Source: Gammaproteobacteria bacterium (lineage in GTDB: Bacteria > Pseudomonadota > Gammaproteobacteria > JAABTG01). From it: a stretch of DNA of 64,000 nt. Positions 14,660 to 39,980 of the stretch are shown here, in pieces. Where the stretch lies: assembly GCA_017999615.1 (NCBI GenBank), contig JAGNLM010000001.1, forward strand, positions 62,001 to 126,000, read 5' to 3'. Under the pieces are notes generated by a model. It searched no databases and was not told the DNA's origin. It was given only the letters and a program-made list of their open reading frames with translations. The position numbers and the translations under genes are program-made. Position 1 is the first letter of the stretch; the number at the start of each line of letters is the position of its first letter.

Positions 14660-16018
14660 TTGACCCTGACGAGCGTTGCCTTTCTCATCGCGTTTCTGGG
14701 CGGCTGCATCCTGTCCCTGGTGCGTCAGCCCATCTACGGGCTTGTCACATACATAGGAGTCTTTTACCTCCACCCGCCCTCTGCGTGGTGGGGCGCAGTC
14801 TTTGGGGGAGTGAGGTGGTCGCTCATCGCCGCTGCAATCACCCTCGCAAGCGTGTGGATTCATGGCAGAAGACTTCCAGCCGTGAACGGCTTCTGGAAAC
14901 AGGGGATACCCTGGCTGTATGTGTTGCTGGTCGTCTGGCTGGGAATCCAATTTGCCTGGGCGTTGATCCCGGAGAAGCAGTGGGTACTTCTGATCTTGTA
15001 TGTGAAATACTTGGTTCTCCTCTATGTCATGTATCGCATACTCCGGACCGAGTACAGCCTGCGGGTGTTCCTATGGAGCCATGTGGCGGGATGCTTCTAT
15101 ATGGGGTGGACAGCCTTCACGGCGTACACGGGGGGTCGGTTTGAAGGCTTCAGGGGCCCCGACATCTCGGAAGCAAACGCCGGGGCCCTCACGTTGGCAA
15201 CAGGCTTCTTCGCGATCGGTGTCCTATTCCTGGCCAGCAAGTGGCGATCGCGTGTGGGATTGGCCGGCGTGGCCCCGTTCCTTCTCGACGGATTGGTGCG
15301 GACGGCCAGCCGGGGAGGGTTTCTAGCCCTCACCTTGGGGAGCGCCGCCTTCGCACTCTTCGCGCCTGCCCGCCATCGGAAGATGATCTACGGTCTCGGG
15401 GCACTTGCCGTGGTCGTTTTTCTTATGCTGGCGAACCCGCAGTTCTGGGGGCGGATAGGCACCATAAAATACCTCGGCGCCGAGGTGGAAGAGACAGACA
15501 CAGGGTCGGGCCGGCTGCGAATCATCCTGGCCCAAGCGGGCATGTTTCGAGACAACCCTCTGGGACACGGACACCGGGCGACGCCGTATCTCCTCCCGAG
15601 CTACCTTCCTGACCTTTACTGGCGGCCCACGGAAGGCCTGGCCGAGTCTGGGGCGTCCTCGCACAACACCTTTATGAGCCTCGTTTCGGAGCAGGGTGTG
15701 CCAGGCGCAGTTTTCTATGCCGCACTCGTGACGTGGACCGCAAAGAGGATTGTTCGGCTCCGGAGGGCATTGAAAGGATCGGACTCCTTCGGAGAGATTC
15801 TTCTCGCAGGTGTTGCTGCCGTCATTGTGGCGGTCTTCACAGGAGACATGTTCGTAGACTACCTGAAACTTGAAGTGCGAGTTTGGTTCATTGCGATCCT
15901 GATGATCGCAAGCGACCTCTGGCTACAGACAGATAACGAGGGCCGAGAAAGCGCCGAAGGGGGATGGGAAAGCACGGCGCACTTACCTGAGCCACGGAGT
16001 GGCGAGAGGGCGATCTAG
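14660..16018 (+). CDS. O-antigen-ligase-like polymerase (Wzy type)
   Basis: A 452-aa integral membrane protein with about ten to twelve hydrophobic segments. It has a large periplasmic loop in the C-terminal third (TGSGRLRIILAQAGMFRDN to SGASSHNTFMSLVSEQG), the hallmark of the O-antigen ligase/Wzy superfamily. It would polymerise lipid-linked repeat units at the periplasmic face. TTG 14660 is the first start in frame that keeps the first helix intact. It abuts the next gene without a gap, so the two are probably coupled. Confidence 0.82.
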   Translation: MTLTSVAFLIAFLGGCILSLVRQPIYGLVTYIGVFYLHPPSAWWGAVFGGVRWSLIAAAITLASVWIHGRRLPAVNGFWKQGIPWLYVLLVVWLGIQFAWALIPEKQWVLLILYVKYLVLLYVMYRILRTEYSLRVFLWSHVAGCFYMGWTAFTAYTGGRFEGFRGPDISEANAGALTLATGFFAIGVLFLASKWRSRVGLAGVAPFLLDGLVRTASRGGFLALTLGSAAFALFAPARHRKMIYGLGALAVVVFLMLANPQFWGRIGTIKYLGAEVEETDTGSGRLRIILAQAGMFRDNPLGHGHRATPYLLPSYLPDLYWRPTEGLAESGASSHNTFMSLVSEQGVPGAVFYAALVTWTAKRIVRLRRALKGSDSFGEILLAGVAAVIVAVFTGDMFVDYLKLEVRVWFIAILMIASDLWLQTDNEGRESAEGGWESTAHLPEPRSGERAI

Positions 16019-28198: not shown

Positions 28199-28222
28199 GG
28201 GCTTTACCCAGGGGTTGGTCGG

Positions 28223-28530
28223 CACGTGTGCGCTGGGGATGGAGCTATCGTGACCGTGCGAGTTGTCAGTCGATAGGCCGAGCAGGGGTCTCTGCATTCG
28301 TCGCGACGAGGATCTTGTCGTGGAGGGCAAACGCGAATGGCTTGGTGTGCGAGGGTGTCTCATTGGTGTTATAGGGCGTGAAACCAAGCCCGACGGTGGG
28401 GATGTCGCTGGCGCTCGCGCCAGCCCATGCGCACCGGAGAATCGTAGATGAGCGAGAGTCGAGGTGGTTCTGATGCTTGAGTCAGTAACGAATGGCTGCC
28501 CCTGAGTCATCGTCTGTGAGGTAGTGAGGG
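28223..28530 (-). pseudogene. Decayed copy of the 3-prime end of the 32394 fusion gene
   Basis: The plus-strand sequence 28223-28530 aligns by eye with 32345-32660, for example GGAGGGTGTCTCGTTGGTG versus GAGGGTGTCTCATTGGTG and GTTGTCAGTCAATAGGCC versus GTTGTCAGTCGATAGGCC. The similarity continues past the stop codon into the downstream flank. In the copy the reading frame has a deletion and in-frame stops, so it is a remnant. It lies convergent to the acyltransferase gene and at the far side of the amino-sugar cassette, in direct orientation with the intact copy. Confidence 0.85.
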
Positions 28531-28685: not shown

Positions 28686-29105
28686 TCAGTCCTGGGGCCG
28701 AGACGGGTCGGGCGGTGCTGCCTCTGCTGCATGACGTTCAGCCGGTGCGCCAGTCAGTATCCTCCGGCTCAAGAGGAACGTGACGGGGATCGACACTGCG
28801 ACGGCGGCAATCGGGCCGAGCGACGCGGGGACGCCGAGGCCGTCTACGACGGCGACCACGACGGCGACGCCCAGGATGTACTGGACTCCGTACACCAATG
28901 GGAATCGGCTAAGCTTGGACCACGATCCGCGCTCCCGGAAGACGAACCGCAGCCCGATCCAGTAGGCGAGCAGGACTCCCGACGCATAGGCTGCGGTATA
29001 CGCGAGCCGGTAGTCGAGGATGGTCAGAAGGGCAAGGTAGAGTGCGTACGTGGCCAGGGTGTTGCCAATACCCCCGAGCAGGAATCGCGCGAATTGCGCC
29101 GGCAT
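28686..29105 (-). CDS. GtrA-like membrane protein
   Basis: A 139-aa protein with four predicted helices and the GtrA/DPMS-like signature: FARFLLGGIGNTLATYALYL, AYASGVLLAYWIGLRFVF and the C-terminal LGPIAAVAVSIPVTFLLSR. GtrA-like proteins are thought to help flip polyprenyl-phosphate-linked sugars. ATG 29105 is chosen because the longer frame only reads through the neighbouring gene in another phase. It pairs functionally with the GtrB-like glycosyltransferase at 30058, two genes upstream in the same operon. Confidence 0.88.
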   Translation of the reverse strand: MPAQFARFLLGGIGNTLATYALYLALLTILDYRLAYTAAYASGVLLAYWIGLRFVFRERGSWSKLSRFPLVYGVQYILGVAVVVAVVDGLGVPASLGPIAAVAVSIPVTFLLSRRILTGAPAERHAAEAAPPDPSRPQD

Positions 29106-29115
29106 CGTCGGCGGC

Positions 29116-30054
29116 TCAGCGCGCGGCCCCGAGCTCTGCCAGCCAGGTGTCGTAGTCGCGGATGTAGTCCGCAGAGTCGTAGGGGTGCGAGGCGTACACG
29201 AGCAACGCGGCGTCCGGCGTGTACTTGTACTGGATGCCCCACACCATCGGCGGCAGGTAGAGTCCGAGCTCGGGCGCGTCCAGTTGGAACTCTTGGCGGT
29301 GCTGGCCATCGTCGGCGACGACCGCGCACGATCCCCGGACCGAGATGAGAAACTGGTGGCAGGTGCGGTGGGCGTGCGCGCCGCGGGTCTTGGTGCTCGG
29401 GACGTCGTAGACGATGAACCAGCGATGCGGCTGAAAGGGAAGGTCGCGATCGATCTCCCCGACCGTGATGCTGCCGCGGAGATCGGTGACGGCTTTGAGC
29501 CGGTGCAGCGTAACTCCGCGCACGGCGGTTGGGATCGTTGCCAGACCGGCAGGTTGCGAGGGCTGGGGCTCCGCGTCCCGGTACTTATCCCCGTCGACGT
29601 AGCCGATGATCCGGGCAGGGTTGCCCACGACGATGGCGTTCGGCGGTACGTCGTGGGTGACCACGGCGCCAGCGCCGACCATCGCCCGCCGGCCGATGGT
29701 CACGCCCGGCAGGATCGTGGCATTGGCTCCGATGGACGCACCCTTGCAGACGCGCGACTCTCCAAAGCGCTCGGGGTACCGTTTGCTCCGAGGGAAGGGG
29801 TCGTTGGTGAAGGTGGCGTTCGGGCCCACGAAGACGTCGTCTTCAAGCGTTACGCCGTCCCAGAGTTGGACGCCGGATTTGATCGTGACGCGGTCGCCTA
29901 CGACCACGTCGTTCTCGACGAAGACGTGATCGCACAGGTTGCAGTCGGTGCCGATGCGAGCGCCTGGAAGCACGTGGGCAAAGGCCCAGATCCGCGTCCC
30001 TTTCCCAACATGCTCGGACTCGCATATGCCTTGCGCATGCACAAAATGGCTCAT
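29116..30054 (-). CDS. WxcM-like fusion: sugar N-acetyltransferase plus dTDP-ketohexose isomerase
   Basis: A 312-aa bifunctional protein. Residues 1-165 form a left-handed beta-helix acetyltransferase with hexapeptide repeats ([51 protein letters not shown]). Residues 180-312 form a small cupin of the FdtA/WxcM type, with [38 protein letters not shown] and [20 protein letters not shown]. Together with the DegT aminotransferase at 31008 this gives the three activities needed to make dTDP-3-acetamido-3,6-dideoxyhexose from the dTDP-4-keto-6-deoxyglucose pool. RmlA and RmlB are not in the window. Confidence 0.9.
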
Positions 30055-30057
30055 GCC

Positions 30058-31020
30058 TCAATCTCCTCTGACCGTGCGGGCATCGCCCGCTTCCGGCGCA
30101 TAGGTGGTCGTCCTCATCACGATGGCGTTGGGACGCCCCTTCGAGTTCTCGTACGTCCGCCAGACGTAGGACCCGACAAGCCCGTTGGCGAGGAGCCCCA
30201 GTGCCCCGAAGAAAAGGACCAGGATGGCCGTGGCTGCGTAACCGGGTACCCCGATGCCACCCGTCAGGCGCGCCGCCACCACCAGGAGGCCCAGCACCAT
30301 GCTTAGACCCACCCCGAGCGCACCGATGCCGGTCAGCACCCGAAGCGGGAGGTCAGTGAACGCGAAGACACTGTCCAGCAGGTATCGGAACTTGCGCCGG
30401 AACGTCCACGCCGAGCTTCCGTGCCGGCGCGCCAGCCGCCGGTAGGGGACCACGGTGCGCCGGAAGCCGAGCCAGAAAAGGAGGCCGACGAGCGAGGTGT
30501 GGGTCTCCTCGAGGCGCAGTAGCTCATTGCGGAACGCGAGGTTGCAGCCGAACACGTCGACGCCGCCGGGGGGCATGTCCGGAAGCACGAGCTTGCGGTA
30601 GAGTCCCCAGAACGTGCCGGCCGCGATGCGGCTCAAAAATGGGTCGTCGCGGCCCTCGCGCGTCCCGATAACAACGTCCGCCTCCCCCTTTGAGAGGATC
30701 CGAAAGAACTCCTCGGCAAGCTCAGGCGGCTCCTGCAGATCGGCGGCCATGACCGCGAAGAATGGCCCTTCCGCCGCCGCGAGCCCGGCGCGAATGGCAG
30801 GGAAGGAGCCGAAGTTTCTGGAGAGCGCGAGGAGTTGGGCGCGGACGCCAGACTCCTTCAGGGCGGCCTCGAGGAGCGCGTAGCTCCGGTCCGGACTCCC
30901 ATCAACGACGAAGACAACCTCCAACTTATAGGTGAGGCGGGCATTCAGTCGGGCGACGGCGTCGAGGAGCTCCGGGATGGAACCCTCGTTCTTGTAGACC
31001 GGGATGATCAGGGAGTACAC
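30058..31020 (-). CDS. GtrB/ArnC-like polyprenyl-phosphate glycosyltransferase
   Basis: A 320-aa membrane GT2. GTG 31020 opens directly onto VYSLIIPVYKNEGSIPELLD; the GT-A domain has VFVVDGSPDRSYALLE, FFAVMAADLQEPPELAEEFF with the D-L-Q-E-P motif of this subfamily, and SSAWTFRRKFRYLLDSVFAF. Two C-terminal helices follow. It should load a sugar onto undecaprenyl phosphate for transfer after flipping by GtrA. It overlaps the aminotransferase gene upstream by 13 bp and ends 3 bp before the WxcM-like gene, so the cassette is one operon. Confidence 0.9.
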   Translation of the reverse strand: MYSLIIPVYKNEGSIPELLDAVARLNARLTYKLEVVFVVDGSPDRSYALLEAALKESGVRAQLLALSRNFGSFPAIRAGLAAAEGPFFAVMAADLQEPPELAEEFFRILSKGEADVVIGTREGRDDPFLSRIAAGTFWGLYRKLVLPDMPPGGVDVFGCNLAFRNELLRLEETHTSLVGLLFWLGFRRTVVPYRRLARRHGSSAWTFRRKFRYLLDSVFAFTDLPLRVLTGIGALGVGLSMVLGLLVVAARLTGGIGVPGYAATAILVLFFGALGLLANGLVGSYVWRTYENSKGRPNAIVMRTTTYAPEAGDARTVRGD

Positions 31021-32111
31021 GGGGGCTCCCAGCGGTTGACAGCCTCGGCCACGGTGTCTACCTCCTCGTCGGACATCTCCGGGAAGCAGGGCAGGGAGAG
31101 GACCTCCCGGCAGGCCGCCTCGGTCGCGGGAAGCGCTTCGGAGGGTGCGCGTCCGGCGAGGGCCGGCTGGCGGTAGTCTGGCACCGGGTAATGCACCTCG
31201 GAGGCGATTCCGGCCGCGGAGAGGTGGCTCCGCAGCGCATCGCGCTCGGCCGTGCGTACGACATAGAGGTGCGCGACGTAGGCCGGGTCCGAGGGGGGTG
31301 GGAGTTCCAGGGCAGCATTCCGGATGGCCCCGTGATAACGGTCCGCGATCGCCCTGCGTCGCACGTTCCATCCGGCGAGGTAGGGGAGCTTCGCTCGCAG
31401 CACGGCGGACTGCAGCTCGTCGAGGCGGCTGTTTCGGCCCGCGGGGATTGTCGCCTCGTACTTGCGGGTCCAGCCATACTGGCGAAGGGCCCGCATGCGT
31501 TCGGCGACACGCTCATCGCGGGCGAGCATCGCCCCGCCGTCGCCAATGGCCCCAAGGTTCTTCGTGGGATAGAAGCTGAAACACCCGACGTCGCCCCAGG
31601 CACCCGCCGGCGTGCCGTCAATCTCGGCGCCAATCGCTTGGGCGCAGTCTTCGACGAGCGGGACCCCAGCCGCCCGACAGAGGTGGAGGATAGCGGGCAT
31701 GCTGGCCATCCGACCGTAGAGATGCGTCACAATGACCGCCCTGACACCACGACCGAGGACCTTCTCGAGTGCCGATGGCGACATCGTCAGCCTTTCGTCC
31801 ACGTCGACGTAGTGTGGGATTGCCCCGGTCGCGACGATAGCGGTCGACGAGTACATCCCAGCATTCGCTACGGTGGCGACTATGTCGCCTGGCGCAACAC
31901 CGAGGGCTCGAAGACCGAGTTCCAGCGCGTCGGTACCGTTCCCCACGCCGACGCAATAGGGCATGCGGCAGTAGGCGGCAAGCTCTTGCTCAAAGGCCCG
32001 TACCTCGGGCCCGAGCACATACCAACCACTGTCCACCACGCGCCGCATGGCTGCGTGGATGTCGTTGGCAAAGGACGCAGAGTGGCGGCCCAAGTCGTTG
32101 ATCAGCAGCAT
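31008..32111 (-). CDS. Sugar aminotransferase, DegT family (FdtB-like)
   Basis: A 367-aa PLP enzyme with all family landmarks: GVGNGTDALELGLRALG, VEDCAQAIGAEIDG with the PLP-contacting Asp, and the Schiff-base Lys in GCFSFYPTKNLGAIGDGG. The adjacent FdtA-type isomerase and acetyltransferase fusion point to dTDP-3-keto-6-deoxyhexose as substrate. ATG 32111 is chosen because MLLINDLGRH is the normal beginning of the family; the longer frame to 32150 adds unconserved residues. It is the first gene of the minus-strand cassette. Confidence 0.92.
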   Translation of the reverse strand: MLLINDLGRHSASFANDIHAAMRRVVDSGWYVLGPEVRAFEQELAAYCRMPYCVGVGNGTDALELGLRALGVAPGDIVATVANAGMYSSTAIVATGAIPHYVDVDERLTMSPSALEKVLGRGVRAVIVTHLYGRMASMPAILHLCRAAGVPLVEDCAQAIGAEIDGTPAGAWGDVGCFSFYPTKNLGAIGDGGAMLARDERVAERMRALRQYGWTRKYEATIPAGRNSRLDELQSAVLRAKLPYLAGWNVRRRAIADRYHGAIRNAALELPPPSDPAYVAHLYVVRTAERDALRSHLSAAGIASEVHYPVPDYRQPALAGRAPSEALPATEAACREVLSLPCFPEMSDEEVDTVAEAVNRWEPPCTP

Positions 32112-32393
32112 GATCGTCCTATTGAGGCTGCAAGGCCTTGGTGGTTGCACCTGTATCGACCGTAACGAAGGGCTCTTGATGAGCGTTCGCTCATAGGTAA
32201 CAAGGGGCTCTCTTGAATTTCACGTGGGTGCGGGCTAACGGATTGCCCCGTGGCCATTATCCACGACGGAGGCCTGGGGTAAGAGTGAGGTGGACCCCGA
32301 CCGCTGGACAGGATTCAAGGCCATATACCTTAAGGGAGCAGGTGCGCTGGCAAGTGTGCGATGGGGATGGAGCGGCCTTGAGCGGGCGCGTTG
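32112..32393. other. Promoter region of the amino-sugar cassette, with palindrome
   Basis: A 282-base gap between the cassette and the fusion gene. It holds a palindrome (ATGAGCGTTCGCTCAT, 32179-32194) between two near-identical direct repeats (TAACGAAGGGCTCTTGA at 32163 and TAACAAGGGGCTCTCTTGA at 32198). This is a plausible operator or insertion scar in the region that must contain the minus-strand promoter. Bases from about 32345 are the flank shared with the pseudogene at 28223. Confidence 0.45.
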
Positions 32394-35300
32394 TCAGTCA
32401 ATAGGCCAGGGAGGGGTTCTGGGATTCTTCGCGACGAAGATGTCGTCGTAGAGGACGAACGCGGACGGCTTGTTGTTGGAGGGTGTCTCGTTGGTGTTGT
32501 AGGGTGTGAAGCCAAAGCGGCCGTAGCGCCCGTTGTGGCCCTCGCGCCAGCGCATGGGCATCGGAAAATCGTAGACGAGCCAGGGTCGAGGGTCTTCCTG
32601 ATACTTGACCCAGTAACGAATGCGGGCCGCGGAGTCTCCGTGCGTGAGGTTCTGACAGGCGGGAGGGATCCGCCCCGTCCAGGGCTCGGGGCAGAAGACG
32701 AGGGTGACCTCCAGTCGGAAGGTCATCCACTGGGCTGGCTTCCATCCGATGCAGCCGTGGTAGCGGCCCGGTACGACGGGTTTGTGGAACCCCGGCACGG
32801 TGAGAAGGTCCGGTGGGTCTGTCGGAAACAGATAGGCGACGTTGGGCAGATTGCGGTCGTGTGACACATAGCGGTAACGACAGGCGTTGTCGCCCCCGGG
32901 CTGGATGTCGTAATCGTAGGGGTCGGTGCCGGTGGGGTCGGGGACGTTGGGCGTGGCCCACAGTCCGCAGCCGTGGTAGAGGCCGACAGGCCCATTCCAG
33001 CTGGTATTAGCAACGATCTGGCCAAAGGAGCAGCCGGCGGGGTCGCCGATTTCGTTGATGATGAGTTGCTTCGCACCATCGCCTCCGACGGCGGACTTTA
33101 TAGGGCGGCGCTCGGAATCGAATGTCGTAACGAGCTCCGGGGAGAACCACTGGCGCCACTGGACGACGATGGTGTCGCCTTCGCGAAACTCATTGAGCGT
33201 GAAGGTGAGACCGCCGTGGTCGGGCCCGTCGCTGGGGAGAAAGTCCATGCGCACGGCGCCCCCGCCGCGGGTCTCTGGGCCACGATAGAGGTAGGCCTTT
33301 GCCGGGCGGTCGCGGGTGGCACCAAGGGATGCCGTGAGGGTGCCGACACGGCTGGCTAACGGGCGCTCGCCGTCGAAATCAAAGCAGGCGAGTACCCCCG
33401 GTTCCTCGCACAATTCGGCGAACGTGCGCGCGTGGCGGATGGGCCGGGTGCCGCGCTCGCCTTGGGGTGGGCTCGCGGTTGTGACGTTGGCGGCGACGAA
33501 GCCGGCCCGTGCGGGGGCGGGGTGTGCAGCCGTTTCGGGGGCGGGCGCGGCCAGTGCCTCCAGCGGGAAAGGGAGTGGTCCTAGCGCGAGAACAGGCAGG
33601 AGCAGCAGTCCTGCGAGCTGCCTGCGGTGTGGCTGCGTCGAGGCAGGCTGAGCTGACAAGCCAGTCCGCGTGTCGACGCGTGCCGGTGCTCCGGTGGGCG
33701 GTTCATGAACCGGTGGGCGCTGGGTGGGCAGCATGACGAACCACGTCAGGAGGAAGAAGAGCAAGGATATCCGCGGGTCATCAAAGCTGCTGTCAAACAG
33801 GCCGACGGCCAGGAGGCCCGCGAAGGCAATCGCGAGTACCAGGGCCATGGGGTCACCGTGACTCACGCGGGTGGCGAGCCGTACCACCCAGAAAACCTGA
33901 AGGATGAGGAGGGCAGCGAGGCCAAGCCAGCCACCCTCGAAGAAGGCATCGACCCAGAGGTTCAGGGCATGCCAGAGCCGGTGCTCGCCGGACCACAGGT
34001 GCCACCGGTCTAGCCCTGAGCTGAAGTCGCCGTTCACTATCAGGTCCCGTCCGGCAGGGGTGAGCACGCGCACGGCGTCGATGTCCACGCCGACCGCGAG
34101 GCCGCGGTGCAGGAGTGCGACCTCTACGGGCCTCGCGCCGAGCCAGGAGTCCCCGCCGAGGTGCGAGACGTCGAAGGACCACTCGAATTGCTCCCAGGCA
34201 CCGGGCTCGGCAGCGGTTCGGAAGCTGGTCCAGAAACATTCCCGGTAGGGGCTAAGGATGTTTCGCTCGCAGATCTCCACCAGGAAGCTGGTGGGCGCGG
34301 CGCTGACGGGTCGGAGATTGACCGTGAGTCGGTAGGGGCCCGGCTCGGTGACCGTGAACCGTTGCCGTAGGACGAGGTTTCCTGCCCCACTCTTGCCGAA
34401 GCGCAAGACTGTATTCTCGCCCTCGGTCACCAGCCCGTAAGTCGAGGGTCGATCCTGGTCCGTCGCTATCCAGACAAAGGTGCGTGGATAGGCACCCTTG
34501 CCCATGCCGAGAGCTCGGGCGGCCGGGTCGGAGGTGATCTGCTGCACCAGGCGCGACCAGTGTGCCAGTCGGCCCTTGAGGTCTGGTAGCGCGTCGGCCA
34601 AGCGGGACTGGATGAAGGCGCCGCCGAGGACCGGCACGGCCAGCGCCAGGGCGAGTAGGCTCGCGAGCCCTGCTGACCACGCCCAACGGCGTGCCGGAGA
34701 GCCGGAAGCGCGCGCGAGCAGCAGGGCGCCCGCAACGAGGGTGGTGGCCATCGCAGCCAGTGCCAGGTAATTGGTGCGGGTGAAGGTCACGAGGAGCGCG
34801 TAGATGCCACCTGCGAAGAGGACCAGCCCGGCGGCGCGTACGGGCACCCGTCTCCAAAGCAAGAACGCACTGGCCGTAAAGGCGATAGTGGTCACCAGGT
34901 ACGCGTCCACCGGCGCCCCGCCAGTGTGCATGCCGGAAAACATACCGGTGACGCGGTACTCCTGATCGAAGTCCAGGAGGCCGGTAAACACGGCCCGCTC
35001 CCAGAGGACAGATAGGGTCGCGCCAGCGAGCCCGAGCAGCATGCCCGCGGAGAGCCGGCGCTCGGCCGAGTCATCCCGGGCGCGTGCCTGACCGAGCAGG
35101 GGCAGGAGCAGGACGGCCCAGAGGAACCCGCGGGCCAGGCGCAGACTGTTCCAATGGCTGTAGTACCCGGCGAGGGCATTGGCGTCGAGGGGCTGGATCG
35201 GCAGGAGTCCGCGCAGGGTGGTGAGCGTCTGCCAGACGACCACGAGCGCCAGGACCAGGACCGGAGGGCGGCTCAGGCGCAGGGTGCGAAACCAGGGTTG

Positions 35301-35639
35301 CGGGTGCCAGAGCGCAGAGGCCACTGTGACCAGCAGGAAGAAGTCCAGCTCGTTTACGTAGAGGCGTCCTGACCAAGGGGTCAGGTCCAGCACCGGGATG
35401 AGCGCGGGTACGACTACGAGCCAGGCCGAGGGCGCCCAGGCCAGCAGGAGCGCGTAGGCAGCGAGTCCCCCGACCAGCCAGCCCGGCGCGACCGGGAAGG
35501 TGTGGCCGGCGCAGAGGGCGGCGGCCAGAAGGCCGAGCGCGAGTGCCCGGCGCACCAGAAGAAGGGGATGAGGCGGATTGGCTGGTTGCCGACCCGCCTC
35601 ATCCCCTTTGTTGCTTACAGACCCCGTGATCACGGCCAT
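32394..35639 (-). CDS. Fusion of O-antigen-ligase-like polymerase with secreted lectin/lyase-like domain
   Basis: A 1081-aa fusion protein. Residues 30-360 are about ten helices of the O-antigen ligase/polymerase type (TFTRTNYLALAAMATTLVAG; periplasmic loop around SRLADALPDLKGRLAHWSRL). Residues 425-545 form a beta-rich carbohydrate-binding-like insert (PGPYRLTVNLRPVSAAPTSF, IVNGDFSSGLDRWHLWSG), followed by closing helices at 570-640. Residues 672-698 look like a second signal or anchor helix, and 740-1081 form a beta-sandwich resembling polysaccharide-lyase-like domains (TFTLNEFREGDTIVVQWRQW, QLIINEIGDPAG). Such a fusion would tether a glycan-binding or cleaving domain to the polymerase in the periplasm. 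ATG 35639 is used, but a perfect hairpin covers the first codons and GTG 35555 is possible. Family assignment of the last domain is tentative. Confidence 0.8.
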   Translation of the reverse strand: MAVITGSVSNKGDEAGRQPANPPHPLLLVRRALALGLLAAALCAGHTFPVAPGWLVGGLAAYALLLAWAPSAWLVVVPALIPVLDLTPWSGRLYVNELDFFLLVTVASALWHPQPWFRTLRLSRPPVLVLALVVVWQTLTTLRGLLPIQPLDANALAGYYSHWNSLRLARGFLWAVLLLPLLGQARARDDSAERRLSAGMLLGLAGATLSVLWERAVFTGLLDFDQEYRVTGMFSGMHTGGAPVDAYLVTTIAFTASAFLLWRRVPVRAAGLVLFAGGIYALLVTFTRTNYLALAAMATTLVAGALLLARASGSPARRWAWSAGLASLLALALAVPVLGGAFIQSRLADALPDLKGRLAHWSRLVQQITSDPAARALGMGKGAYPRTFVWIATDQDRPSTYGLVTEGENTVLRFGKSGAGNLVLRQRFTVTEPGPYRLTVNLRPVSAAPTSFLVEICERNILSPYRECFWTSFRTAAEPGAWEQFEWSFDVSHLGGDSWLGARPVEVALLHRGLAVGVDIDAVRVLTPAGRDLIVNGDFSSGLDRWHLWSGEHRLWHALNLWVDAFFEGGWLGLAALLILQVFWVVRLATRVSHGDPMALVLAIAFAGLLAVGLFDSSFDDPRISLLFFLLTWFVMLPTQRPPVHEPPTGAPARVDTRTGLSAQPASTQPHRRQLAGLLLLPVLALGPLPFPLEALAAPAPETAAHPAPARAGFVAANVTTASPPQGERGTRPIRHARTFAELCEEPGVLACFDFDGERPLASRVGTLTASLGATRDRPAKAYLYRGPETRGGGAVRMDFLPSDGPDHGGLTFTLNEFREGDTIVVQWRQWFSPELVTTFDSERRPIKSAVGGDGAKQLIINEIGDPAGCSFGQIVANTSWNGPVGLYHGCGLWATPNVPDPTGTDPYDYDIQPGGDNACRYRYVSHDRNLPNVAYLFPTDPPDLLTVPGFHKPVVPGRYHGCIGWKPAQWMTFRLEVTLVFCPEPWTGRIPPACQNLTHGDSAARIRYWVKYQEDPRPWLVYDFPMPMRWREGHNGRYGRFGFTPYNTNETPSNNKPSAFVLYDDIFVAKNPRTPPWPID
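35562..35608. promoter_or_regulatory. Perfect 15-bp inverted repeat at the fusion gene start
   Basis: AAGGGGATGAGGCGG (35562-35576) and its exact reverse complement (35594-35608) surround a 17-base loop. If translation starts at 35639 this is coding sequence; if it starts at GTG 35555 it is a leader hairpin immediately upstream of the start. It could be a terminator-like or attenuating element. Confidence 0.6.
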
Positions 35640-35689
35640 CGGTCTGAGGTCGAGCAAGAAAACCCGCTCTCCAGCATAGCGTCAGGGAA

Positions 35690-35800
35690 ACGGAAACGGG
35701 GACATTGGAAATGGGGAAATGGGGAAATGGGGAAATGGGGACATTGTGCTTTTCCGGAAAGCCAAGCAGGGCGCGGCTTTCCACGAACGCCCTACGCGGC
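35690..35800. repeat. REP-like repeat family B copy 1 with GGGGAAAT microsatellite
   Basis: The core GGGGACATTGTGCTTTTCCG (about 35737 onward), then GAAAGCCAAGCAGGGCGCGG, is shared with 36480. It is preceded by nearly four tandem copies of the 8-mer GGGGAAAT (35707-35740). It overlaps the end of the nuclease remnant. Confidence 0.8.
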
Positions 35801-36475
35801 GATGCCCCGGAGCCGTGCGAGAAGGTCCTCAGGGGCCTCGCAGTCGATGACCCATTCGCCGACCTGCCCGAGTCGCTCGGGGCTGTCGATGCCCGCCAGC
35901 AGCGGCTCGGCGGCGTCGGCCGTGGCCGCGCCGAAGCGGCGGTCCACTTGGCGCAGTAACATGTGGCGCCCGGCGCTCAGCCCCTGCTCCAGGCCTTCCT
36001 GGCGCCACACCCGGGTCCAGTCGCGAACACGCTCGGCAAGCATCGCTTCGTCCTCCGGCAAATCCAGTCTTTCAGACCATTGTAGGCCGGGGAAGCGCCC
36101 CGGCAGGAGCACCCGGCGCAGCCAGGTGAGAAATCCCTCCCGAGCCTCGGCGTAACGCGGCTCGTGCAGCGTGCGCAGGGCGAGCGCCATCGCCCGGACC
36201 AGGCCGTCGCTCCCGGAGCTCCCCTCCAGCCGGAATACCGCAGCCACCAGACTGCGCAGCGGTGCGAGCTCCTCCTCGGTGTAGCGGCTCTCGTCCAACA
36301 ACAGATAGCGGAGCTGCGGGCGGTAGTGCTCGAGCCCGGCCTGCCCCGGGGAGACCAGTTCGGCGAGCTCGCGGGCTGCCATCCAGCGGTCGACGGTGGA
36401 TTGGAACTCGATCAGGAGGTAGACGTAGAGCCAGCCGTCGGTGCTGCGAGCGCGCCAGATGACGTCGGGAAACGG
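35792..36475 (-). pseudogene. Rpn/DUF4351-type PD-(D/E)XK nuclease, truncated
   Basis: The frame contains the core of the Rpn-like transposase/nuclease family: DVIWRARSTDGWLYVYLLIE, FQSTVDRWMAARELAEL, LEHYRPQLRYLLLDESRY and the C-terminal GQVGEWVIDCEAPEDLLARL. The N-terminus is replaced by repeat B sequence just before DVIWRAR. In addition, the segment of about 40 residues that normally follows the E-F-Q-S-x-V-D motif (containing L-P-P-V-L-P-x-V-L-Y-N-G) is missing. It is therefore an internally deleted and 5-prime-truncated remnant between two copies of repeat B. Family members act as DNA endonucleases promoting recombination; this one is likely inactive. Confidence 0.75.
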
Positions 36476-36632
36476 GGGGAAACGGGGACATTCTGCTTTT
36501 CCGGAAAGCCAAGCAGGGCGCGGCTTTCCGCGGGCCGGCAGGGTAGGTCCTGGAGACCGCGCCGCGCCTCGTTCTCCGGAAAAGCAGAATGTCCCCGTTT
36601 TCTTTCCCGTTTTCTTTCCAGAATGTCCCGGT
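36465..36632. repeat. REP-like palindromic repeat family B copy 2
   Basis: An inverted pair: GGGGACATTCTGCTTTTCCG starts near 36485 and its reverse complement ends near 36597, with a second internal pair formed by GCGCGGCTTTCCGCGGGCC and GACCGCGCCGCGCC. It separates the nuclease remnant from the transposase gene and lies 45-50 bases upstream of the transposase start. Confidence 0.85.
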
Positions 36633-36675
36633 TTTCCCATGGACGGCGTGCGCGGGGGCGCCTACGCTTCGGAGC

Positions 36676-37341
36676 ATGCCAAGGACGGCACGGGCGTCGG
36701 TCGGCGGCGTCATCTATCACGTCATCAATCGCGGCAACCGGAGGGCGACGGTCTACCACGGCCCCCCGGACTACACCGCGTTCCTCCGTCTCGTCGCGCG
36801 TGCCGACGAGCGCATTCCGATGCGCCTGCTCGCGTACTGCCTGATGCCGAACCACTTTCACCTGGTGCTCTGGCCGCACGAAGACGGCGACCTGAGCCGG
36901 TGGATGCAGTGGCTCCTGACTGCGCACGTGCGCCGCTACCACCGGGTGCGCGGTACCAGCGGCCGCGTCTGGCAGGGGCGGTTCAAGGCCTTCCCCATTC
37001 AGGGGGACGCCCACCTCCTCGCGGTCCTGCGCTACGTCGAAGCCAACCCGCTGCGGGCGGGCCTGGTGCAGCGGGCCGAGGAGTGGGCCTGGTCGAGCGG
37101 GGCAGCCCACCGGCCTGCGAAAAGCGGCGTTCGACTCGATGAGTGGCCAGTCCCGCGCCCGGCCGACTGGCTCCGGCGCGTGAACGAAGGCGTCGAGACC
37201 CCCGAATTCCTCAGCCGGCTGCGCGAGTGCGTCAACCGAGGGGCTCCCTACGGGGACGGCGACTGGGTCCAGGAGACCGCCGCGCGCCTGGGCCTCGGGT
37301 CCTCCCTCCGGCCGCTGGGCCGGCCACAGCACACCGGCTGA
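36676..37341 (+). mobile_element. REP-associated tyrosine transposase 1 (Y1/IS200-like domain)
   Basis: A 221-aa single-strand DNA transposase of the RAYT group. It has the start VGGVIYHVINRGNRR, the HUH motif in CLMPNHFHLVLWP, a catalytic Tyr candidate in MQWLLTAHVRRYHR, and the conserved WQGRFKAFPIQ and YVEANPLRAGLV. It is flanked by inverted copies of REP-like repeat B on both sides (36465-36632 and 37342-37487), the classical arrangement of a RAYT inside its palindromes. ATG 36676 is chosen since upstream codons are repeat sequence. All key residues are intact, so it could be active on the B repeats. Confidence 0.9.
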
Positions 37342-37487
37342 TAACGGAAACGGAAATGGGGACATTGTGCTTTACCGGAGAACGAGGCGCGGCGCGGTTC
37401 TCCCGCGCCTCGCTCAGGGCTCCGGAAAGCCGCGCCCTGTCTGGCTTTCCGGAAAAGCAGAATGTCCCCTTTATCTCCCCTTTATCT
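37342..37487. repeat. REP-like palindromic repeat family B copy 3
   Basis: An inverted pair: GGGGACATTGTGCTTTACCG (from about 37357) and TCCGGAAAAGCAGAATGTCC (ending about 37469), with internal GCGCGGCGCGGTTCTCCCGC. It is followed by two TTTATCTC units, one of which supplies the stop codon of the minus-strand gene at 37482. Confidence 0.85.
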
Positions 37488-38873
37488 CAGGGCCGCACGC
37501 CCGATGCCGCGCTCGGTGAGACTCCCCAGATACAGCCAGCGCCCGGCCTGGCGGGCGCTGGAAATGGGGGCGTAGGTGCCCGCGGGGTCGCGGAGGTCGT
37601 GGACGACCCGCCCCTCGCTGTCCAGGCCCAGCACCCGGCCGTAGCGCTCGGGCGCCGGGAGTAGGGCGGCGGGCAGCCAGGCCAGCAACCGGCGCAATGA
37701 GGGCCAGTCGGCGAGCGCGTCCAGCAGTCGGCTGCGCGGGGCGAAGAGGGCGAGCCAGTAGATGCCCTCACCGTTGAAGATGCCCTCGCCGCTGTAAGAG
37801 ACCCCGTCCGGCAATCCCGGCAGGTCCTCGATGAACGGCTCGGCCCGGCCGGCCTGGGGCCCGCGGAGCCAGTACCGCGTGACCCGGTAGGCGAAGGTCT
37901 CGGCGACCAGTACGAACCGCTCCTCGGGGTCCACCGCGACCCCGTTGGCGAAGAAGAGGCCGTCGAGCAGGCGGTCCACCGCCCCCGTGACGGGGTCATA
38001 GCGCAGGAGTCGGCCACTCGGCCGGGCTTCCAGGGCCTCCCGGTGGACCGCCTCGGGCCTGTGGCGCCGGGAACTGTCGGAAAAGTAGACGGCTCCGCTC
38101 GCACCGACGGCCACGCCGTTCGTGAAACGGAGCGCCGCCCCACCTTCTTCCGTGACGAGTTGTCGGACCTCGCCCCCGGGCGCCAGGGCGTGACGCTCTC
38201 GACGCTCGTCCAGGGCCTCAGGCCCGCGGCGCTCGTCCAGGGCCAACTGCTCTCGGTGCTCGTCCGAGGCCGGAAGCCCCTGGCGCTGGTGCACGGCCTC
38301 ACGCCCCTGCCGCGCGTCCAGGCCCAGAAGCCCCCGGCGCGCGTCGGCGATCAGCAAGTTGCCTTGCCGGTCGAGGGCCAGACCGAGGGGATACCCGCCG
38401 GTCCGCGCGAGTTCCTCGACCCGCCCGTCCGCCACCCGGACGCGGAGGATGCGGCCGTCGGCGGTGCCGCAGAGGAGGTCACCCGAGGGCTCAATGGCGA
38501 AATCCTCGGGGCCAACCACCGACTCAGCGACGTACCGCTCGATGAAGAGCCGATGGCTGCCCGAGTCGGTGGTTTCGGCCCGACCATCCCGTTCGCCGAC
38601 CTGGTTGTCGCCCAGTCCGACCACTGGGTCGGCCGCTGGGGCGGCTGCAGCAGTGGCGAGGGTTTCGAGACCTGCCGGCATCACGAGACCTGCCGGCATC
38701 ACGAGACCTGCCGGCATCATGAGCACTTCGGGCATCACGAGAACTGCCAGAGCCAGCGTTACGAAAGCCGCGAGGGTTACGAGCGTCGTGACCGCTGCGA
38801 AGGCGCTGCGCGTGAGGAGTGCGAAGGCGCGACGCGCGAGGGGGGACAGAGGGCTGTGGGGGCGTGGAGACAT
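37482..38873 (-). CDS. SMP-30/strictosidine-synthase-like beta-propeller protein with internal repeats
   Basis: A 463-aa protein. A hydrophobic N-terminal region (about 15-80) acts as signal or anchor and contains a tandem LVMPAG repeat. The propeller follows: GPEDFAIEPSGDLLCGTADG, YPLGLALDRQGNLLIADARR, ALRFTNGVAVGASGAVYFSD and FFANGVAVDPEERFVLVAET. Members of the superfamily hydrolyse lactones or similar small molecules; the substrate is unknown. Residues about 184-232 are a hydrophilic insertion made of degenerate repeats (ALDERRGPEALDERRERHAL) in a place where the family normally has a short loop. The stop codon lies inside repeat B copy 3. Confidence 0.8.
   Translation of the reverse strand: MSPRPHSPLSPLARRAFALLTRSAFAAVTTLVTLAAFVTLALAVLVMPEVLMMPAGLVMPAGLVMPAGLETLATAAAAPAADPVVGLGDNQVGERDGRAETTDSGSHRLFIERYVAESVVGPEDFAIEPSGDLLCGTADGRILRVRVADGRVEELARTGGYPLGLALDRQGNLLIADARRGLLGLDARQGREAVHQRQGLPASDEHREQLALDERRGPEALDERRERHALAPGGEVRQLVTEEGGAALRFTNGVAVGASGAVYFSDSSRRHRPEAVHREALEARPSGRLLRYDPVTGAVDRLLDGLFFANGVAVDPEERFVLVAETFAYRVTRYWLRGPQAGRAEPFIEDLPGLPDGVSYSGEGIFNGEGIYWLALFAPRSRLLDALADWPSLRRLLAWLPAALLPAPERYGRVLGLDSEGRVVHDLRDPAGTYAPISSARQAGRWLYLGSLTERGIGRAALR
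38666..38737. repeat. 18-bp tandem repeat inside the propeller gene
   Basis: Three perfect units CGAGACCTGCCGGCATCA (38666-38719) and a degenerate fourth. On the minus strand they encode LVMPAG in the hydrophobic N-terminal region, so copy-number change would alter the signal or anchor length without a frameshift. Confidence 0.9.
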
Positions 38874-38914
38874 CGAGGGTCAAACCAGCTTGTCCGAGGA
38901 GGTCCGACAGAGGG

Positions 38915-39874
38915 TCACCCGCCTTCCTTTTCCTGTATCCGCTCGAAAGACTGATGGGGAAAGACCTGACCCCCCTGTTGGTGACCCCCCTGCTTGGTGT
39001 GCCCCCCCTGTTTGGTGCGCGCCTCATGGACCCCCTTGACCGCCTTGCTGACGGTCGTGTAGTGCACACCGGCCGCACGGGCGATCTCGACCAGCGTGTA
39101 GCCGTGCTCGACGTGCGCGGTTGTGAACGCCTGGTCTCGCTCCGCCCGGTTGGCTGTCGCAACCTGCCCGAGCAGGGTTTCGAGGGATGGTCGAACGGCG
39201 TGCCGTTGCGCCCGTGGGACTTCCGGGCTGAGGTTCTCAGCAGGCATTTCCTGTCGCAGGCGCTCCGCGAAGCTCTCGTCCCCGAGCAGGACCTGCCCGC
39301 GCAGGTGCTCCCAAGGACCCGTCTCGCCGATGCCACGATAAACGAATGTGCTGTAACGCCGTCGCGCGCGCTCGGGCGTCGGGCCGAACTGCCTCAGAAC
39401 GGTCTCGACGTCCAGCCACGCCGGCGCCCGCTCGAGGCCCATGGTGGCGCGGAAACTGCTCCAGGGGTGCCGCTCGGGGGAGGCGAGCAATCCGGCGCGC
39501 ACGGGGTTCAGCACGACGTAGCGGCAGAGTTCGAGCAGGTACGAGTCGCGATCGACCACGATGGCCTTGAATCGTCCCTGGAAGAGGTGCCCCACGCGGT
39601 CGTGGCGCCGGTTGAATCGTTGTGTGTAGACCCCGTTCAACTGTCGCATACCGCGAGAGAGGTTGGGCTCCGGGGTCTCGAGGAGCAGGTGATAGTGATT
39701 GCCCATCAGGCAGTAGGCGTACATGCGCCAACGGAACTGGCCGACGGTCGAGGCGAGGACATCGAGGAAAACCACTCGGTCTTGGTCGTCTGCGTAGACC
39801 GCCTCGCGCGCGTTGCCGCGGCTGGTGGCGTGATAGAGTGCACCGGGGTACTCGAGGCGGAGAGGCCGGGCCAT
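38915..39874 (-). mobile_element. REP-associated tyrosine transposase 2
   Basis: A 319-aa RAYT with ARPLRLEYPGALYHATSRGN, the HUH motif in MGNHYHLLLETPEP, a catalytic Tyr in MRQLNGVYTQRFNRRH, FQGRFKAIVVDRD and YVVLNPVRAG. It also has a C-terminal helix-turn-helix (YTLVEIARAAGVHYTTVSKA). It is only distantly related to the transposase at 36676. The final residues (KQGGHTKQGGHQQGG) read into a tandemly repeated flank. The direct motif AAGACCTGACCCC occurs on both sides of the gene (38961-38973 and 39906-39918), a motif typical of the surroundings of this group. Confidence 0.9.
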
Positions 39875-39980
39875 GCAGAGAGTCTAGTCTAAGATGTGAT
39901 GAACCAAGACCTGACCCCATCAACCCCGGGGTGGGCGAGTCGCTAATTCCAGAGTCCTGCGGCCCTTCGAGGTTTCGACT

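Follow-up and report, generated by a model that had tools for sequence, protein, structure and literature searches.

How Wzy-type polymerisation is coupled to trimming, release and length control of the polysaccharide is an open question, usually studied via separate Wzz-type proteins. The stretch of DNA analyzed here (64,000 nucleotides from a Gammaproteobacteria bacterium, hereafter the window) raises this question within a single gene, which an initial annotation had read as a polymerase continuing into a secreted, lyase-like domain. Is this fusion genuine, and would it unite building and processing of a glycan chain in one molecule? The interpretation to which we give cautious preference, at slightly better than even confidence, is that of a lipid-carrier-dependent glycan transferase of WaaL/Wzy fold, with a CBM4-like module in its loop and an exported C-terminal domain that would process the nascent polysaccharide.

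The frame of about 1080 codons was confirmed as an uninterrupted minus-strand frame of 1081 codons between an ATG at 35639 and a stop at 32394-32396 (an alternative TTG start at 35657 would lengthen the protein by six residues); the frame on the opposite strand is interrupted by stops. The window genome (2.47 Mb in 21 contigs, 99% complete) was compared with that of an uncultured Ectothiorhodospiraceae (G001), the only other genome of the same genus examined. The same domain order is found there twice, on separate contigs and in frame through the junction: as a full-length fusion with 84% identity to the window protein (locus L003), and as a copy with 94% identity (L005), which extends from aa 285 to the end and has its 5' end cut off by the contig edge. 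All three non-decayed copies of the window C-terminal domain, counting the 5'-truncated one, are fused, and the separate genes that the initial annotation had envisaged for relatives were not encountered for this domain. The fusion gene is real and not an artefact of assembly or read-through. It is also conserved: dN/dS relative to L003 is 0.22-0.25 for the membrane part with the insert, 0.14 for the C-terminal domain (0.11 relative to L005) and 0.7-0.9 for the two linkers, so that the C-terminal domain, where the ratio is lowest, is under strong purifying selection while the near-neutral linkers drift. Coordinates of the fusion gene, its parts and its neighbors are collected in Table 1.

Table 1. 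Features of the fusion gene and of the surrounding locus (window positions).
Feature	Position	Strand	Basis or remark
Fusion gene: WaaL/Wzy-fold membrane enzyme, CBM4-like insert, second export helix, beta-rich C-terminal domain	32394..35639	-	1081 aa
Membrane core, aa 27-400, WaaL-like fold; nearly invariant R229, R288, R346, R357	34440..35561	-	AlphaFold, WaaL 7tpg match, conservation over 82 relatives
CBM4-like beta-sandwich in periplasmic loop, about aa 395-545; C457, C468	34005..34457	-	AlphaFold, profile and structure matches, conservation
Post-insert motif (H553, W556, N560, G570) and last membrane helices, aa 546-645	33705..34004	-	Conservation, AlphaFold model
Second signal-like helix, about aa 674-705	33525..33620	-	Hydropathy, sequence
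C-terminal beta-rich domain, aa 736-1081, 8 cysteines, dN/dS 0.11-0.14	32397..33434	-	Orphan outside genus in all searched sets
DegT-type sugar aminotransferase, next gene downstream	31008..32150	-	PF01041, 323 bits
GT2 glycosyltransferase like ArnC/PgfS/GtrB (polyprenyl-phosphate type)	30058..31005	-	
Hexapeptide acetyltransferase and FdtA (WxcM-like) fusion	29116..30054	-	PF05523, 163 bits; Hexapep
GtrA-like flippase	28686..29309	-	PF04138, 70 bits
Decayed 3' end of another fusion-gene allele	28221..28522	-	77.6% nt identity to 32349-32650
Second, canonical Wzy_C protein	14660..16015	+	PF04932, 55.7 bits; TIGR03097, 70.6 bits (below cut-off)

The membrane part is predicted to adopt the fold of the O-antigen ligase WaaL, in agreement with its earlier description as O-antigen-ligase-like. 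For aa 27-740, an AlphaFold model based on an alignment of 56 sequences (pLDDT 87) matches WaaL (7tpg) in VIA-align with Z 22.4 (rmsd 4.8 over 359 aligned residues), the next-best membrane fold being FtsW with Z 13.1. The Pfam model Wzy_C, whose domain is divided by the insert, scores 17.4 bits on the window protein, under its cut-off of 31.7, and 36.7 on a relative (L053); because of this sub-threshold score, membership in the WaaL/Wzy_C superfamily is based on fold and family alignment and not on Pfam. Arginines of the periplasmic loop are conserved and accompanied by a His motif, as expected of this superfamily, with R288, R346 and R357 each present in 81 of 82 aligned relatives, N560 in 77 and H553 in 70. 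The conserved Arg and His residues we take to be the counterparts of the catalytic residues of WaaL.

The carbohydrate-binding-like insert previously noticed in the periplasmic region is well resolved within the same model as a CBM4-type sandwich, with beta strands at aa 401-526 located between a GMGxGxxPR motif and the H553-W556-N560 motif. Its closest structural match is the CBM of 4mgq (Z 12.8), several other CBM4 modules reaching Z 10-11, and a profile of 59 relatives retrieves the same 4mgq module by sequence (E 7.7e-8); at E values up to 1, Pfam models CBM_4_9 and CBM_4_9_1 are detected in 11/59 and 16/59 family members, respectively. The insert is common to the whole transferase family (82 aligned members), and its C457 and C468 are retained in 81 of them. 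Most likely, it would hold the growing or acceptor chain beside the active-site His motif.

Genomic context bears on the type of reaction. The locus is classified as an exopolysaccharide locus of the exosortase-A (XrtA) type from the co-occurrence of genes for hydrolase 1 (TIGR03100, 360 bits), hydrolase 2 (TIGR03101, 281 bits), PrsT (TIGR02917, 548 bits) and a PEP-CTERM protein of the EDSAP-1 kind (PEP_EDSA_1, 197 bits); hydrolase 2 or PrsT-like genes also adjoin several family relatives. The unqualified designation of the fusion protein as a polymerase, as opposed to a ligase or another transferase, is weakened by the second, canonical Wzy_C protein, encoded about 16 kb away. One alternative is therefore that the protein acts as a ligase or side-branch transferase which, together with the downstream genes, adds 3-acetamido-3,6-dideoxyhexose or a finished chain to an acceptor. 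This would fit the operon-like order with GtrB/GtrA-type and sugar-nucleotide genes, the presence of that separate Wzy_C protein, and a ligase, WaaL, as the best structural match; however, the gene downstream of L003 is different and lies on the other strand, so that the cassette is no constant partner, and the fact that no solved structure is closer than WaaL does not prove ligation. We regard this alternative as rather unlikely, if still a serious contender, and infer that a polymerase is more likely than a ligase.

The role of the fused tail can be approached via the wider transferase family, which was gathered by one scan of species genomes (80 loci). In most members (about 1100 aa in total) a VanZ domain is fused before the transferase; this domain is absent from the window protein, and no such VanZ relative was found in the window genome by a search run without a positive control. 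A long tail after the transferase occurs in six distinct members and belongs to three kinds: the beta-rich orphan domain (window gene and L003), a heparinase-II/III-like toroid (L012 and L013, both incomplete, L013 running off its contig and L012 ending close to a contig end), and beta-helices, namely those of L065 (840 aa) and of L128 (1190 aa in all), the latter following a helix that ends in ALPGSARA. Several of these tails have counterparts encoded as separate genes next to relatives of the transferase. The toroid tails of L012 and L013 are homologous to a heparinase-II/III-like gene (phmmer with the L012 tail, 1.5e-67) that in locus L014 is the immediate, divergently oriented neighbor of the transferase; this gene is recognized by Hepar_II_III_C and by the HepB model (E 5.6e-27). 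In L132, a homologue of the L065 beta-helix (4.4e-89) is encoded on its own, some 260 bp downstream of the transferase, and the L128 beta-helix has homologues in separate genes directly upstream of the transferase in L129, L079 and L083. Roughly 20 more loci carry a beta-helix gene no farther than 4.4 kb from the transferase gene, a plain count and not an enrichment test, as the queries were drawn from such neighbors. The family scores of these beta-helices are generic (Beta_helix, NosD), and such domains may be epimerases, hydrolases, lyases or non-catalytic.

A careful IQ-TREE phylogeny of 32 family members unites five fused proteins with all three kinds of tail (window, L003, L012, L013, L065) in one clade (bootstrap 100, SH-aLRT 99), which is recovered in two further trees, and places L014, with its separate toroid, as the sister of this clade (99/98). 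Given these relationships, the partner domain must have changed at least twice within the five-member clade. L128 lies on a distant branch (both L065 and L128 have long branches), and therefore the C-terminal fusion arose at least two times. On no fewer than two independent occasions, then, transferases whose catalytic loop contains a CBM were joined to domains of the processing type, and these domains differ in fold. The toroid and beta-helix folds are familiar from enzymes that cut or modify glycan chains. Such partner swaps, along with the adjacent separate forms, suggest that chain building and processing are coupled in one molecule. The earlier notion that a polymerase works together with an enzyme processing its chain thus gains indirect support from the toroid and beta-helix partners within the clade and from the adjacent separate genes in relatives.

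The existence of the second signal-like helix was borne out by hydropathy. A stretch containing Arg comes before this helix and an A-x-A motif after it (ALA|AP in the window gene, ARA|AP in L003), which introduces another alternative, namely that the fusion is a matter of gene compaction only, with signal peptidase cutting after A-x-A to yield two independent proteins. The near-neutral linkers would be in keeping with such a cut, as would the A-x-A that the window gene, L003 and L128 have right behind the helix, but the helix of L012, L013 and L065 has no such site, as expected of a tethered domain, and we consider compaction alone a possible but improbable explanation.

The C-terminal domain itself is the least tractable part. 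Strands are predicted for the last approximately 340 residues, described earlier as a beta-sandwich. The suggested likeness to polysaccharide lyases gained no support, no similarity to any lyase family being found; the AlphaFold model of the domain alone, from an alignment of three near-identical sequences, has a pLDDT of 33. Searches of Pfam, NCBIfam and PDB sequences with this domain returned no match. A viral fold library yielded weak matches that were uninformative. Standalone homologues were found neither in 369 genomes of the class (save a 19.8-bit, stop-riddled match, read as chance) nor in 398 genomes of the phylum, viral contigs, plasmids or phages; a search of 50 genomes with transferase relatives, run without a positive control, likewise gave no homologues. 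An assignment to the lyase family PF14099 found no support: hhalign gave a probability of 0.1, with a query profile of only three close sequences, and in a separate test the score lay within the range of 2000 shuffles. These observations leave room for a further alternative, in which the domain is a second lectin, i.e., a non-catalytic carbohydrate-binding or anchoring domain keeping the chain at the site of synthesis. Its beta-rich pattern (in a low-confidence model), the lack of a lyase family match, the eight cysteines as in exported domains and the CBM already carried by the protein are all compatible with this idea; against it, other members of the clade have a heparinase-II/III-like toroid or a beta-helix at the same position, and proteins of these folds are mostly enzymes. 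Overall, we deem a second lectin unlikely, and the partner folds in relatives suggest that the domain may act on polysaccharide. Finally, a joining of two genes by assembly error or accidental read-through, for which the unusual architecture alone would speak, is practically eliminated by the in-frame copies L003 and L005.

Under the preferred interpretation of a transferase fused to a processing domain, we infer that the membrane part would transfer lipid-linked repeat units and thereby polymerize them, that the CBM4-like module in the catalytic loop would hold a chain at the active site, either the growing one or the acceptor, that the second helix would export the C-terminal domain to the periplasm, and that this domain would act there on the nascent polysaccharide by cleaving, trimming or another modification. 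The putative processing enzyme, often beside or fused to the transferase, has been exchanged for unrelated folds within one clade, presumably as the polymer changed. Length control would be a plausible further role of the fusion protein. A bolder version, in which a self-editing polymerase senses or holds the chain by its CBM and cuts it with the fused domain at a set distance, the cutter being swapped with polymer chemistry, appears to us less probable than any of the alternatives discussed above save the assembly error. Genes that fuse a CBM-bearing transferase to a processing-type domain represent one-gene objects for testing the coupling by domain removal or exchange, and the partner swap within one clade suggests a route to pair transferases with enzymes acting on their product.

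Known systems share some of these features. With the WaaL/Wzy superfamily (Wzy_C, 7tpg) the window protein has in common the membrane fold, the Arg residues and His motif of the periplasmic loop and the location in a polysaccharide locus; it differs by the sub-cut-off Pfam score, the CBM4-like module in the loop and the fused C-terminal domain that follows the additional export helix. The VanZ-Wzy_C fusions of Methylococcaceae, Nitrosospira and others belong to the same transferase family and have the CBM insert, but carry an N-terminal VanZ, instead of which the window protein has a C-terminal partner; an association of VanZ-1 with WaaL-like genes has been described (PMC12419801). The alginate lyase AlgL is a polysaccharide-processing enzyme that belongs to a biosynthetic operon, works in the periplasm and has a toroid fold like the heparinase-like partner of L012-L014 (PMC8829089); it is unlike the window protein in being a separate protein of a synthase-dependent pathway, where its task is to remove stray alginate from the periplasm. 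WceF, the loss of which lengthens stewartan chains (PMC7949094), is similarly an exopolysaccharide-cleaving, tailspike-like enzyme from a Wzy-dependent cluster, albeit a separate exported protein and not a fusion. The heparinase II/III family (Hepar_II_III_C, HepB) resembles the L014 neighbor and the L012/L013 tails and, as far as can be told, not the window domain. In the open-licence literature, we found no paper on such a transferase-processing fusion.

Additional observations concern relatives of the gene. The toroid gene of L014 (1886-4402, Candidatus Contendobacter odensis) encodes a membrane-anchored heparinase II/III-like enzyme divergent to a VanZ-Wzy fusion, the two frames overlapping slightly as listed stop to stop. 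In the independent transferase and beta-helix fusion of L128 (1554-5126), the transferase has extra inserted membrane helices. Downstream of the (VanZ-)Wzy gene, a trypsin-like serine protease gene recurs in 17 loci (L015, L021, L022 and others), and a membrane sugar-transferase-like gene recurs in 17 loci as well.

The locus also bears traces of its history. A decayed copy of the last domain had been reported nearby, and it was recovered as a 304-bp repeat of the last approximately 300 bp of the fusion gene (77.6% nucleotide identity) with an in-frame stop. The match to L003 starts 4 bp ahead of the ATG and stops close to the gene end, the flanks being different, and dS relative to L003 is about twice as high in the C-terminal domain (0.58) as in the membrane part (0.27-0.31), a contrast suggestive of mosaic alleles. 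The decayed copy, the L003 flanks and the dS contrast together point to whole or partial allele exchange at this locus. Contig L011 of G001 is colinear with the window over 6.2 kb at 94%, as far as the GtrA-like gene. The direct repeat 28221-28522/32349-32650 flanks the DegT-GT2-WxcM-GtrA cassette, as after allele or cassette replacement; this cassette (28686-32150), on the minus strand opposite the main exopolysaccharide locus, would combine putative 3-acetamido-3,6-dideoxyhexose synthesis with GtrA/GtrB-like transfer. Directly upstream of the fusion gene lie a YhgA/Rpn-like gene (35792-36640) and, within 35500-39900, REP-like repeats along with two Y1/IS200-like (RayT-type) transposase genes (36589-37341 and 38915-39874).
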